Source: Planctomycetota bacterium
GTDB lineage: Bacteria; Planctomycetota; Phycisphaerae; Phycisphaerales; UBA1924
Direction of reading: 5' to 3'
Length of the DNA stretch: 64,000 nt
Assembly: GCA_033763975.1 (NCBI GenBank)
Contig: JANRJM010000007.1
Span: 1-64,000, forward strand
Shown piece by piece: positions 54,526 through 57,780 of this stretch. Positions within the stretch are counted from its first letter, which is position 1; the number at the start of each line of letters is the position of its first letter. The position numbers were made by a program, and so were the translations under genes. The notes under the pieces are model-generated. The model saw only the letters and a program-made list of their open reading frames with translations. It was not told the DNA's origin and ran no database searches.

Positions 54526-54747
54526 GTGGGCCGATCAGTCGCAACGCTCGGAAGTCAATGCGGGCGCTTCGGTCCGCCGCGGACTGTGTGCCCGTCGGTT
54601 GTGCCAGATGCGCTGGCCGGTGTGCTCGAAACGGCGGGGCGCGTCACGCTGGATCGGTTCGGCGCGCTGACCGGCATGGGTGACGGCAAGGATTCGCGCG
54701 CACAACGGGCGCTGAAGGCGCTCGAAACGAACGGGGGTGCGGCGTGA
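54526..54747 (+). CDS. Small hypothetical protein, phage-like segment
   Basis: 73 residues from a GTG 10 bases after the copA stop. No known domain; the C-terminus GMGDGKDSRAQRALKALETN is charged and helical. It overlaps the next gene by 4 bp (GTGA) and may be the tail of a larger phage-type gene whose start was lost. Weak evidence. Confidence 0.4.
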   Translation: MGRSVATLGSQCGRFGPPRTVCPSVVPDALAGVLETAGRVTLDRFGALTGMGDGKDSRAQRALKALETNGGAA

Positions 54748-55442
54748 GTGATACGAACCCCAACACTGAGAACGGCAAACCGCCCGCGCCGACTGCGGCG
54801 GACCTGGACCGGCTGAAGGCGGCGCTGGAAGCCGAGCGCGCCGCGCACAAGGAAACGAAGACGAAGGCGGCGGAGCGCCGCACGGTCTACGCCCGCACAC
54901 TGGGCCTTGCCGAGAACGTGAACGATGAAGATATCGTGGCGCACCTCAGCGGCACCGATCATGCGAAGGCTGTCGCCAGCATCCAAGCCGAACGCGACGA
55001 ACTGCGGGCGAAGGTTACGAAGATTGAGCAGGAACGCGACGCCCAGCAAGTCGAATCGGCAATCAGTTCGGCGCTGTCGAAGTCGGGGATGATCCCCGCG
55101 AACCACGAAGACGCGGCCAACCTCATTCGTTCCATGCTGACCGTGAAGGAAGGGAAGGTGGTCACGAAGGACGGGGTACCGAACGTCATCCCCGGCATGG
55201 ACCCGACACAACTGTTCCACGCGACGGTGAAGACTCTGCGGCCCCACTGGTGGCCGTCGTCTGTCGGTGGCGGCGCGGTGGGCAGTCGTGGCAACGCCAA
55301 CCCCAACGCGCTCCCCGGTGATGCGTCGTGCTTCGACCCGCGTTCCCCGAACTTCAACGTGACGAAGCAAGGGCAGTACCACCGTGCCTACGGCCCCGAA
55401 GCGGCAGCGCGGGCGCGAGCGCAGTACGGGGGTGGACGGTGA
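54744..55442 (+). CDS. Phage scaffold-like coiled-coil protein
   Basis: 232 residues from the GTG at 54744 (overlaps previous stop). Residues 18-120 form a long charged coiled coil (DLDRLKAALEAERAAHKETK, VTKIEQERDAQQVESAISS). The rest is low-complexity Gly/Asn/Pro with PGDASCFDPRSPNFNVTKQG. Length and layout resemble phage head scaffolding proteins, but no family was confirmed. It overlaps the next gene by 4 bp. Confidence 0.55.
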   Translation: MSDTNPNTENGKPPAPTAADLDRLKAALEAERAAHKETKTKAAERRTVYARTLGLAENVNDEDIVAHLSGTDHAKAVASIQAERDELRAKVTKIEQERDAQQVESAISSALSKSGMIPANHEDAANLIRSMLTVKEGKVVTKDGVPNVIPGMDPTQLFHATVKTLRPHWWPSSVGGGAVGSRGNANPNALPGDASCFDPRSPNFNVTKQGQYHRAYGPEAAARARAQYGGGR

Positions 55443-55690
55443 ATACACCTGCTGAACTGTTCGCCGAATCATGGCGGCGCTTCCGGGAGTGGTGCCCCCG
55501 GATCGTCGGTGACGCCGACGTATCCGCAATCCATGACCTGTTGGCCCGGTGCTCTGAAGGGGGAACGCCGGGCCTTGAAGAGGTGTGGGAAGCCGTCGAA
55601 CAGCATCCGGGGGCTGACCGGCGGACGGTGACGGAATACTTCGCGCGGGAAGGGGAGTGGAACCGGCCAACTCGCCTACCGAATGGCTGA
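55439..55690 (+). CDS. Small hypothetical protein, phage-like segment
   Basis: 83 residues from the GTG at 55439, overlapping the previous stop (GTGA). It reads FAESWRRFREWCPRIVGDAD and later VEQHPGADRRTVTEYFAREG, a compact helical protein. I recognise no family. Third member of a chain of 4-bp overlaps that indicates one operon. Confidence 0.5.
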   Translation: MNTPAELFAESWRRFREWCPRIVGDADVSAIHDLLARCSEGGTPGLEEVWEAVEQHPGADRRTVTEYFAREGEWNRPTRLPNG

Positions 55691-55722: not shown

Positions 55723-55782
55723 CGTCTACAGTGTTGGCGATAGGATCGACGCCCGGAATGACCGGGCGTCGATCCTGTAGAC
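55723..55782. promoter_or_regulatory. Strong 15-bp hairpin before the TIGR04255-type gene
   Basis: AGGATCGACGCCCGG (55742-55756), loop AATGA, CCGGGCGTCGATCCT (55762-55776) is a perfect 15-bp stem. Outer arms GTCTACAG (55723-55730) and CTGTAGAC (55775-55782) extend it past an 11-base bulge. It ends 14 bases before the ATG at 55797. No T-run follows. It could be an attenuator, a transcription barrier, a regulatory RNA or an element end. Confidence 0.6.
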
Positions 55783-55796
55783 TTCACCCACCCCCA

Positions 55797-56603
55797 ATGG
55801 CTACTGCCCGTCCAGATTGGAAACGTCCCCCCGTCATCGAAGTGGTGCTGGGTGTGCAGTTTGACGCGCTGCCCGCGCTGACGAATGGGCACCTTGGCTG
55901 GTTCTGGGGCGACATGCACGCAGAGTTCCCCAACTCAGACGATGTGCCGCCTATCCCGCCGGTCGTTGAAGCGTTTGGTGACGAAGTTCCGTTCGGGTTT
56001 CCGGCGCTGGGCTTCCGTCGCGCCACTGGGGATTCGCGGTTGCGCATGACCTCAGCCGATGGCACGAAGATGATCCAAGTTCAGAACGGTTGGCTGGTTG
56101 CCAACTGGACGAAAAAGGGGGACACTGAATACCCCGGCTTCACCGGCGTAAAGACGCTGTTCGACGAAGCGATGCGACGATTCGCGTCCTTCCTGAAGGA
56201 ACGAAATCTGGGAATCATCAAGCCGAACTTGTGGGAGGTGACGTACATTGACCACCTCCCGGAGGGTACCGTCTGGAACTCTCTGGCTGACCTTCCCAAA
56301 GTCTTCCCCGGCTTGTTCGGCAACGGCCAGTGTGCCAATGGAACGAACGAAGCCGTAGATTCCACTTGGGCGTGGCGTCTTTCCCCTCAACCGGGGCGCT
56401 TGCGGGTTTCGGTGCAATCGGCCCGGACCAGTTCGGAACCAGAACGGGATATCCTGTTGGTTCGGAGCATTGCACGCGGGCCTTTGGGGACCGATAATGC
56501 GGGTTCTCTTGACGATGCCCTGAACTTTGGCCGATCTTCAGTGGTAGATACATTCATGGGCTTGGCTTCCGACGAAGCGAAGCGATACTGGCAGGGAGAC
56601 TAA
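55797..56603 (+). CDS. TIGR04255-type protein
   Basis: 268 residues from the ATG at 55797; a longer frame upstream is non-coding. The N-terminal pattern RPPVIEVVLGVQFDALPAL is the PPV-EVV-x-FxxL signature of TIGR04255, a sporadically distributed family of unknown function. The rest is mixed alpha/beta with VTYIDHLPEG. It directly abuts the next gene (TAA-ATG) and has lower GC than the flanking chromosome. Role unknown. Confidence 0.7.
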   Translation: MATARPDWKRPPVIEVVLGVQFDALPALTNGHLGWFWGDMHAEFPNSDDVPPIPPVVEAFGDEVPFGFPALGFRRATGDSRLRMTSADGTKMIQVQNGWLVANWTKKGDTEYPGFTGVKTLFDEAMRRFASFLKERNLGIIKPNLWEVTYIDHLPEGTVWNSLADLPKVFPGLFGNGQCANGTNEAVDSTWAWRLSPQPGRLRVSVQSARTSSEPERDILLVRSIARGPLGTDNAGSLDDALNFGRSSVVDTFMGLASDEAKRYWQGD

Positions 56604-57083
56604 ATGCTCACGCTCGACCACCCAACCGCTGGCTTCAAAGACTACTCACTCAGCGCGGGTTCCGCGCGTGTGGTGATGGTCCAGCCTGCGTGTGGTCCCA
56701 GCCCCGAGCGTTCCGACCCCTACATGGAATGGGCACTTCACTTCGATCAGGGCTTGAAGCGAGTGGATCAGCGCATCCGCGATTGGTCGCGCGATGCTGC
56801 CGCGCTTGCGGACGAAGAGTTGGAAGCACCTTCCCGTGAAACAATCGTGCGTGCAATCGAGATCATCAACCAGTTGAAGGTTCTGGTCATGGATCGAGTC
56901 GCGCCCGCGACGGCCACGCTGCTGAATCTGAAGGGTGCGTCGCTTGGCAGCGGTGGAGAGATCAGCCTTGAACTGGGTTCTGGCCCGTTCGCTGTCACCT
57001 ACCGGATTGAATCCGACGGTACCGTCACCGAGTTGTTCTTCAAGAACAGTCGGTTGATCCGTCGTGACCAGATTCTGCGCTGA
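56604..57083 (+). CDS. Hypothetical protein of TIGR04255-linked module
   Basis: 159 residues starting at the base after the TIGR04255 stop. A helical first two thirds (RETIVRAIEIINQLKVLVMD) leads to a small beta domain GGEISLELGSGPFAVTYRIE then SDGTVTELFF, similar in layout to uncharacterised proteins of the pattern GGI-x-W-...-dG. No catalytic motif. Lower GC than neighbours. Function unknown. Confidence 0.6.
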   Translation: MLTLDHPTAGFKDYSLSAGSARVVMVQPACGPSPERSDPYMEWALHFDQGLKRVDQRIRDWSRDAAALADEELEAPSRETIVRAIEIINQLKVLVMDRVAPATATLLNLKGASLGSGGEISLELGSGPFAVTYRIESDGTVTELFFKNSRLIRRDQILR

Positions 57084-57136
57084 CGACGGGTTCCGCCAGT
57101 CGAAGTGCGGGGTGTATCCTTGCACTAATCTCCACG

Positions 57137-57601
57137 GTGGAACAGAACGATCCCATTCAGCCTGATGAGATCATTCTCCGTCGCGTCCCAGAGGACCAGA
57201 TGGGAAGTGGCAACCCGCGCTTGCCTCTGCCAGACGGCTTCGACCCTCACCGAACGAACGATGCTGATGGTCTGTCCGTCTATCGAGAGAAGTTCCACAC
57301 TCCAGCGCAAGTCGCTGGGTTTCGTACAAAGGGATCAAAGCCGACGTGGATAGCGAGACTCCGCGCAAAGTCGATCACGGACCTTGGGCTGACCTTGAAA
57401 CCTGATCCAAGAGAACCTGAGGACGGACTACCCGCCCGACCGGGACACGCTCTGATCGTTGAGATGAACACTCCGGCGCGAAAGTCGGATGCCGTGGAAC
57501 AGTGGAAACAACAACTGCTGTCGTCGGTCATAGGAGTTGAAGGGGGCGATACTGGCTTCCCTGCCCCGGTCGCAGCACCTGCCGCGCCGCAGTCAGGTTG
57601 A
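57137..57601 (+). CDS. Hypothetical protein of TIGR04255-linked module
   Basis: 154 residues from a GTG at 57137, 53 bp after the previous gene. Segment pattern: DEIILRRVPEDQ, NDADGLSVYREKFHTPAQVA, PTWIARLRAKSITDLGLTLK, PGHALIVEMN. I associate this GLSVYRE / PGHALI pattern with uncharacterised short proteins seen in several phyla, but I cannot name a family. Last gene before tRNA-Lys; low GC. It probably shares the operon. Confidence 0.6.
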   Translation: MEQNDPIQPDEIILRRVPEDQMGSGNPRLPLPDGFDPHRTNDADGLSVYREKFHTPAQVAGFRTKGSKPTWIARLRAKSITDLGLTLKPDPREPEDGLPARPGHALIVEMNTPARKSDAVEQWKQQLLSSVIGVEGGDTGFPAPVAAPAAPQSG

Positions 57602-57668
57602 GCGCCGAACGTCCGGTTTGTGCCCCAGTTGTGCCCCACCGACCGACACGCCCCGAAGCCGGTCCAAG

Positions 57669-57697
57669 AAAAAAGCCTCTGGCAATCGCCAGAGGCT
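57669..57697 (-). terminator. Strong intrinsic terminator after tRNA-Lys
   Basis: On the minus strand AGCCTCTGGC-gatt-GCCAGAGGCT (10-bp perfect stem) is followed by TTTTTT. It lies 11 bases past the tRNA-Lys 3' end and is placed to end its transcript. A shorter T-run (TTTT) on the plus strand side may also stop readthrough from the upstream module. Confidence 0.85.
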
Positions 57698-57707
57698 GGT
57701 TTTCAAG

Positions 57708-57780
<73 letters not shown>

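Follow-up and report, generated by a model that had tools for sequence, protein, structure and literature searches.

Organization of the P1–P2–P3 locus

The window analyzed here, a 64,000-nucleotide stretch of a Planctomycetota bacterium of the order Phycisphaerales (assembly GCA_033763975.1, contig JANRJM010000007.1), carries three consecutive genes on the forward strand, designated P1, P2 and P3, which lie ~105 bp from a tRNA-Lys gene (Table 1). A first-pass annotation, made from the letters alone, had described this arrangement, including the direct TAA-ATG junction of the first two genes, and the open reading frames (ORFs) bear it out; P2 and P3 are separated by 53 bp. The P1 reading frame is open from 55683, and close homologues align from 55797. 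P1 is a TIGR04255 protein, as had been proposed from a sequence signature (E 3.5e-13; 49.9 bits against a curated cut-off of 30; positions 2-251 of 252). P2 and P3 had no match at E<=10 in Pfam, NCBIfam or PHROGs, and none of the three proteins was placed in a metabolic family by these collections.

Table 1. Features of the P1–P2–P3 locus and its immediate surroundings, in window coordinates
Feature	Position	Strand	Description
P1	55797-56603	+	268 amino acids; TIGR04255 protein, putative sensor or neutralizer
P2	56604-57083	+	159 amino acids; helical part and GGEISLE...DGTVTELFF beta part; putative adaptor or antitoxin
P3	57137-57601	+	154 amino acids, GTG start; probably related to PDC-M32B, predicted ADP-ribosyltransferase (ART)-like fold; putative effector
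Phage head-scaffolding gene	54744-55442	+	PHROG 206, E 1.9e-23; context, outside the module
Hairpin directly 5' of the module	55740-55778	+	17-pair stem, 5-nt loop; terminator of the upstream gene or operator
Terminator-like hairpin between P3 and tRNA-Lys	57674-57697	.	flanked by A/T runs
Presumed attachment core, end of tRNA-Lys(CTT)	57705-57728	+	recurs at ends of integrase-bearing elements elsewhere
tRNA-Lys(CTT)	57707-57780	-	integration hot spot

The GC content of P1, P2 and P3 is 0.589-0.595, compared with ~0.66-0.75 in most 1-kb windows, in agreement with the low GC noted earlier. Among named relatives, metagenome-assembled genomes of Phycisphaerales and Phycisphaeraceae are nearest to the locus. 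Between the window and the copy in genome G065, amino-acid identity is 90% for P1, 86% for P2 and 72% for P3, and the ratios of nonsynonymous to synonymous substitution rates (dN/dS) are ~0.04, ~0.08 and ~0.10, respectively, rough values only since dS is near or above 1. P1, P2 and P3 are real, maintained genes under purifying selection.

Co-occurrence and modular structure

To analyze the variability of the genomic context, gene neighborhoods were surveyed in 200 related genomes, the own genome counted. TIGR04255 proteins were detected in 27 of them, at 29 loci, and at 18 of these loci P2- and P3-type genes follow directly downstream on the same strand (L008-L013, L064, L066, L068-L076, L078). 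The middle gene of L078 was assigned by position and alignment only (23% identity), and the P3 genes of L064, L066, L069, L070 and L076 were detected only by a profile built from other P3 proteins, that of L076 becoming significant only in the second round. A second three-gene unit, composed of TIGR04255, a HEAT-like gene (label assigned on reading) and DUF7689, which was scanned in one case, occupies five loci (L059-L062, L077). The contig ends inside the module at two loci (L067, L079), and neither pair stands behind TIGR04255 at the remaining four (L057, L058, L063, L065).

Searched individually among the same relatives, the window P2 was found in 6 genomes and P3 in 14 at E<=0.01, of which 11 were confirmed by a later profile; the three unconfirmed genomes (G103, G031 and G119; E 1e-4 to 0.0035) were excluded from the locus counts. 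P2 and P3 are absent from six other searched genomes of the same genus. The P3 profile detected members in 8 of 294 genomes drawn from the phylum (own genome counted), and a scan of genome contigs with one P3 peptide pattern returned 10 loci, all in Planctomycetota. The distribution of P2 and P3 is sporadic, as in mobile genes.

Outside Planctomycetota the spread rests on few plasmid and viral records. On a Mycobacterium paragordonae plasmid, TIGR04255, P2 and P3 lie directly behind a MobF relaxase gene, and an 85.6-kb IMG/VR contig carries an integrase, TIGR04255, P2 and P3, followed by phage genes including the large terminase. The first-pass annotation had suggested that such proteins occur near each other in unrelated bacteria, and the order is indeed fixed across Planctomycetota, the Mycobacterium plasmid and the viral contig. 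A Hymenobacter plasmid encodes a DUF4209 protein followed by P2-P3, with BrxA and BrxE genes 4-5 kb off; its P2 and P3 were recognized by the hidden Markov models (HMMs) built here (2.9e-12 and 1.3e-5), and its DUF4209 protein matches the PADLOC candidate PDC-S39 (4.2e-18). The HEPN RNase superfamily includes DUF4209 (PMC3710099). Plasmid searches with the P1 proteins of the window and of L070 led to one and the same plasmid, and a broader P1 alignment found one viral-contig relative. No match was obtained by plasmid tblastn with the window P2 and P3, by searches with the L073 P3 in plasmids and phages, or with the L070 P2 and the L130 P1 in phages; no relative was detected in viral contigs when two P3 alignments or the alignment of close P1 proteins served as queries.

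Across all fetched loci, the profile identified 35 distinct P3 genes (40 matches minus five loci fetched twice). A P2-type gene or part is situated directly ahead of P3 in 34 of them, the exception being an incomplete copy in L080. TIGR04255 is the first partner in 25 cases, the M32A N-terminal domain fused to a P2-type part in two and DUF4209 in one, and in six none was recognized; these proportions are biased by the fetching of 18 of the 35 P3 genes via TIGR04255. Judged from these neighborhoods, P2-P3 is the constant core, accompanied by a variable first partner (TIGR04255, the M32A N-terminal part, DUF4209/HEPN or none recognized). The earlier view of the three genes as one module therefore holds in that the fixed order recurs, and is qualified in that the unit is modular, with TIGR04255 as one of several partners of the P2-P3 core.

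Several loci deserve mention in their own right. Amino-acid identities for P1/P2/P3 are 87/75/49% between the window and G107 and 78/53/66% between the window and G108 (loci L009, L010); P3 seems to have been exchanged between loci, because its order of relatives differs from that of P1 and P2. A Gemmataceae contig (L115, 2639-4280) has the tandem arrangement P2-P3-P2-P3, and an ORF ahead of P2-P3 in L117 (3989-4642) resembles, by eye, a PD-(D/E)XK nuclease. A decayed trio is present in G211 (L108, 5638-7299), with a stop in TIGR04255 and stops in the P3 match.

Relationship of P2 and P3 to PDC-M32

The three P2 subgroups are interrelated by profile-profile comparison (P2a/P2b E 1e-5; P2a/P2c E 8.8e-7; remaining comparison E 2.4e-8). 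P2b-type proteins match the C-terminal quarter of the PDC-M32A models, positions ~257-365, with a best value of 8e-11, and the Hymenobacter P2 matches M32A weakly (0.0045). Neither P1 nor P2 of the window matches PDC-M32A at E<=10; the P2c-type protein of L071 has no PDC-M32A match either, and no PADLOC model matched the window P2. Taken through its subgroups, P2 probably belongs, as a distant member, to the 'NWDSYGA...dG.v.lEW' family, which makes up the C-terminal part of PDC-M32A. Among solved structures, the best sequence match to P2 is a capsid protein, at 0.011.

For P3, the match of the L073 protein to PDC-M32B (1.2e-5) is complemented by a reverse search, in which the P3 profile finds the true M32B of L106 at 6.9e-9 (E 1.8e-12 in a 15-sequence set). 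These values point to homology of P3 and PDC-M32B. Within the same phylum, L106 encodes a full PDC-M32A (2.3e-120) followed by M32B (6.7e-51), and L107 a PDC-M32A (4.6e-86) followed by a P3 reading in two pieces. On Limnohabitans, Rhizobium and Rhodococcus plasmids, homologues of the L106 M32A are the first genes of overlapping two-gene units, in which the second gene matches the P3 profile; the Limnohabitans unit lies between RelE and VapBC genes. PDC-M32 has been mentioned in Sinorhizobium prophages (PMC12429752).

PDC-M32 thus shares gene order, close spacing and plasmid location with window-type P2-P3, and its M32B component is the likely homologue of P3, whereas its first domain differs and is fused to the P2-type part, where the window has a separate TIGR04255 protein instead. 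The M32A proteins of L106 and L107 were unmatched by the TIGR04255-type HMMs built here, and no M32A model matched the P1-type proteins of the window, L071 or L119. By these comparisons, the window trio is a TIGR04255-led variant rather than a member of PDC-M32. A protein encoded on an Acetobacter plasmid (L120, 5944-7249) consists, by eye, of two P2-like halves, of which the first matches PDC-M32A; an SspB-like gene follows, and P3 was not detected at this locus by profile.

Predicted fold and invariant residues of P3

From 12 aligned sequences, AlphaFold2 produced a confident model of P3, with a mean predicted local distance difference test (pLDDT) score of 88.5 and a predicted template modeling (pTM) score of 0.83. 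With VIA-align, the model superposes on Tpt1 at Z 9.3 over 98 residues (2.8 Å), and among the matches listed the 12 entries at Z 8.1-9.3 are all Tpt1/KptA, aligned over 91-98 residues; two further Tpt1/KptA entries follow at Z 6.4 and 5.8. The next matches are AvrPphF ORF2 (5.9), DarT (5.0-5.4) and CC0527 (5.4), and beyond these come other ADP-ribosylating enzymes and NAD glycohydrolases; DarT1 scores 4.4. We take 49 of the 50 VIA-align matches listed to be NAD+-using enzymes, as many, though not all, of the titles say; CC0527 is uncharacterized. The nine best PDB matches in Foldseek comprise eight Tpt1/KptA chains, among which 1wfx is presumably Tpt1, and AvrPphF ORF2. The alignment covers only the catalytic half of Tpt1, residues ~84-183, at 7-10% identity, and P3 is without the N-terminal lobe of this nearest fold. 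A sequence search of solved structures with P3 returned nothing at E<=10, and the best match among viral predicted structures had an E-value of 0.064. On the model, P3 appears closest to ART-fold enzymes of the Tpt1/KptA type.

The catalytic residues of ARTs form an R-S-E or an H-Y-E set. In the alignment of 26 P3 sequences, counting rows with a letter at the position, Arg15 (25/25), Ser47 (25/25) and His104 (26/26) are invariant, and all nine further members, including the second genes of the Limnohabitans, Rhizobium and Rhodococcus units, keep the three residues. The full set occurs in none of three unrelated neighbor proteins used as controls, one of which keeps Arg and His. In the model, the first strand bears Arg15, the second Ser47 and a later strand His104, so that Arg and Ser follow the order of the R-S-E layout, with His in third place instead of Glu; the invariant residues thus coincide with neither known set. 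The statement of the first-pass annotation that no catalytic motif is visible has to be amended by this Arg-Ser-His set.

Fold of P1

The P1 model, built from seven sequences, is of middling confidence (pLDDT 77.3, pTM 0.79) and is read as two α/β repeats. Structure searches brought up several different folds, and none of the candidates was retained: Foldseek linked P1 to AdoMetDC and its prozyme at E 5e-5 with a TM-score of only ~0.25, creatine kinase scored Z 9.6 in VIA-align (4.0 Å), and the best value in a sequence comparison with solved structures was 0.15, so that P1 was not assigned as a relative of guanidino kinases, TBP or AdoMetDC. These matches may reflect a common α/β arrangement only. 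The listed name of TIGR04255 states no function, and the name was not found in the literature searched.

Mobile setting

The tRNA-Lys(CTT) gene is an integration hot spot in this family. Copies of its 3' end, 47-49 bp long, bound two stretches: one of 36.7 kb in G065, where an integrase match is located ~250 bp from the tRNA, and one of 9.5 kb in G002, which contains an integrase. The trio of G107 is separated by ~150 bp from a 24-bp copy of the tRNA end and that of G108 by ~98 bp from tRNA-Ala(CGC), and an incomplete P3 in G008 adjoins a stretch identical to the window tRNA-Lys. The other close copies (G065, G016, G083) showed no tRNA in the vicinity of the trio; on a G083-type contig (L113), the distance between the trio and a phage major-head gene is ~3 kb. 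Location at an integration site or on a mobile replicon is accordingly combined with sporadic presence, the marks of mobile cargo, and the earlier guess of a mobile module finds support in the mobile elements, the plasmid, the viral contig and this distribution.

In the window, the carrier seems to be a decayed remnant, because the contig has no tyrosine-integrase match and the window no second copy of the tRNA-Lys end. The phage head-scaffolding gene remains near the trio; the 'phage-like gene chain' of the earlier description is reduced to this single gene, and the tRNA-Lys on the other side is where it had been placed. G006 carries genes matching window positions 19-27 kb shortly before its tRNA-Lys, a layout that puts the left border possibly as far as ~27 kb.

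Proposed function and alternative explanations

Considering the fold, the conserved core and the mobile setting together, we hypothesize, with a probability of about one half, that the trio is a single horizontally moving conflict cassette, a defence or toxin-antitoxin system with P3 as its NAD+-using ART-fold effector. P3 would use NAD+ through the Arg15-Ser47-His104 set and would either put ADP-ribose on nucleic acid or protein, or destroy NAD+. P2 would hold P3 inactive or deliver it, and P1, as an exchangeable recognition part, would sense a product of the invader or stabilize P2. Infection would disturb P1-P2, P3 would be freed and the cell stopped. Recognition would be swappable, because first partners are exchanged while P2-P3 stays. 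In this scheme the fold of P3 is predicted, and NAD+ use, toxicity, complex formation, the trigger and the defence role are inferred.

The logic resembles that of CmdTAC, a three-gene phage-defence system in which an ART effector is reported to be released when a chaperone senses a capsid protein (PMC11618068). The likeness consists in three genes with an ART effector and two control proteins; with the roles of P1-P3 themselves conjectural, it is an analogy of logic, and no membership is claimed. CmdT is a different ART from P3, and CmdC belongs to the SecB-like chaperones. Neither the Pfam nor the PADLOC scan of P1-P3 brought up a CmdTAC component, no direct comparison with the CmdTAC proteins having been made. 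DarT is an ART-fold toxin that modifies DNA; P3 resembles it at low Z, and by Pfam the cassette has no macrodomain antitoxin of the DarTG kind.

A number of observations weigh against the conflict cassette. The Foldseek E-values of the P3 model are weak, 0.27 to 1.1 with a best value of 0.27, and unrelated proteins are mixed in from rank 10; profile-profile comparison of P3 gave E 0.05 with KptA and E 0.7 with DUF952, in a setting too insensitive to be decisive, as the KptA-DUF952 control is itself weak (E 0.0095). The invariance of the Arg-Ser-His set is partly by construction, as members were collected with profiles containing these motifs, and the typical ART Glu is not invariant (position 109 is E in 17 of 24 sequences), so P3 may not catalyze. 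Direct scans against PDC-M32B are mostly poor: of seven P3 proteins, six from trios and that of Hymenobacter, only the L073 protein falls below 1e-3, four lie at 0.015-0.054 (window P3, E 0.027) and two have no match, the Hymenobacter P3 matching no PADLOC model at all. Of the 14 P3 genes in loci fetched via P3 alone (L080, L102-L108, L114-L118; L115 contributes two), five are headed by TIGR04255 and two by the M32A domain, six have no recognized first partner and one is the incomplete copy, and several P2-P3 pairs without a recognized first gene sit inside ordinary operons.

A bolder extension would make P3/PDC-M32B a new class of ART-fold effectors with an Arg-Ser-His active site, a universal warhead that P2, as adaptor, would link to exchangeable recognition modules (TIGR04255, the M32A N-terminal domain, DUF4209/HEPN) and that bacteria and phages alike would use as a plug-in immune architecture; we put it forward tentatively, as something that could be true but probably is not in this full form.

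Among the rival explanations, an addiction module that stabilizes the prophage or island, with P3 as the toxin, P1 and P2 as the antidote and no role in phage defence, is unlikely yet survives best. Positions at the ends of tRNA-integrated elements and on plasmids agree with it, as do the toxin-antitoxin genes adjoining the Limnohabitans unit, whereas an antidote made of two proteins would be uncommon, no DNA-binding antitoxin domain was named by Pfam in either P1 or P2 (though one may be present), and the P2-P3 pair accompanied by a HEPN-type protein close to BREX genes speaks for defence. We regard it as quite unlikely that P3 is a catalytically dead ART-fold protein and the trio regulatory or structural phage cargo that acts by binding, in superinfection exclusion or counter-defence; the lack of a conserved canonical Glu and the integrase adjoining the trio on the viral contig would fit such a role, but three polar residues invariant over several phyla suggest chemistry and not binding alone. 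Tpt1 and KptA being the nearest folds, their 12 listed entries at Z 8.1-9.3 against 5.9 for the best other family, P3 could also be a 2'-phosphotransferase of this type, or an RNA- or DNA-end modifier, serving the element by nucleic-acid repair or capping; this is improbable in view of the missing N-terminal lobe, which restricts the alignment to one half of Tpt1, and of the KptA and DUF952 profiles, which do not match P3. That P2-P3 are accessory genes of planctomycete operons, joined to TIGR04255 by shared descent only, is suggested by the pairs without a recognized first gene in L105, L114, L115 (two copies), L117 and L118, and is made very improbable by the same P2-P3 order in Mycobacterium, Hymenobacter and the viral contig and by the absence of both genes from the six other genomes of the genus.

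Under the conflict-cassette hypothesis, the named family TIGR04255 and the listed defence candidate PDC-M32, both unexplained, are joined through P2-P3 into one testable proposal. New here are the modular P2-P3 core, the connection between TIGR04255 and PDC-M32, and the predicted ART-like fold with its Arg-Ser-His set; if true, the proposal would add to the ARTs a class whose residue set is unusual and reveal a modular sensor-adaptor-effector design.

Neighboring features

The hairpin directly ahead of P1 is well supported by inverted-repeat and RNA-fold tests (z -6.9; none of 200 shuffles equally good) and is absent from the output of the terminator scan, which reported two terminator-like sites in the region against 2.2 expected from shuffles. 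The ORF that follows the scaffolding gene (55328-55690) has no convincing PHROGs match (best 0.031).

Elsewhere in this genome the tRNA end recurs only on contig C9 (~29967; L143, 7919-8017), where 103 alignment columns are 87% identical to window positions 57653-57754, comprising the terminator and the tRNA-Lys end. It is flanked by a large helicase-like ORF and a groEL-like ORF, both labeled by eye. At the tRNA-Lys hot spot of G006 (L147, 14835-15716), a HigBA-like pair and an N-terminal integrase fragment were recognized by eye; the fragment has no PHROGs match, and a longer relative in L111 matches integrase at 1.5e-5. The G002 element encodes a 142-residue ORF beside its attachment copy and integrase (L146, 1404-1832), in which a resemblance to KptA/DUF952-type ARTs was seen by eye only. 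In the window, the stretch from ~27 kb to tRNA-Lys is where G006 carries other genes, and positions 31821-54515 encode heavy-metal and efflux-type proteins, by eye RND pumps, a copper-type P-ATPase and a CsoR-like regulator.

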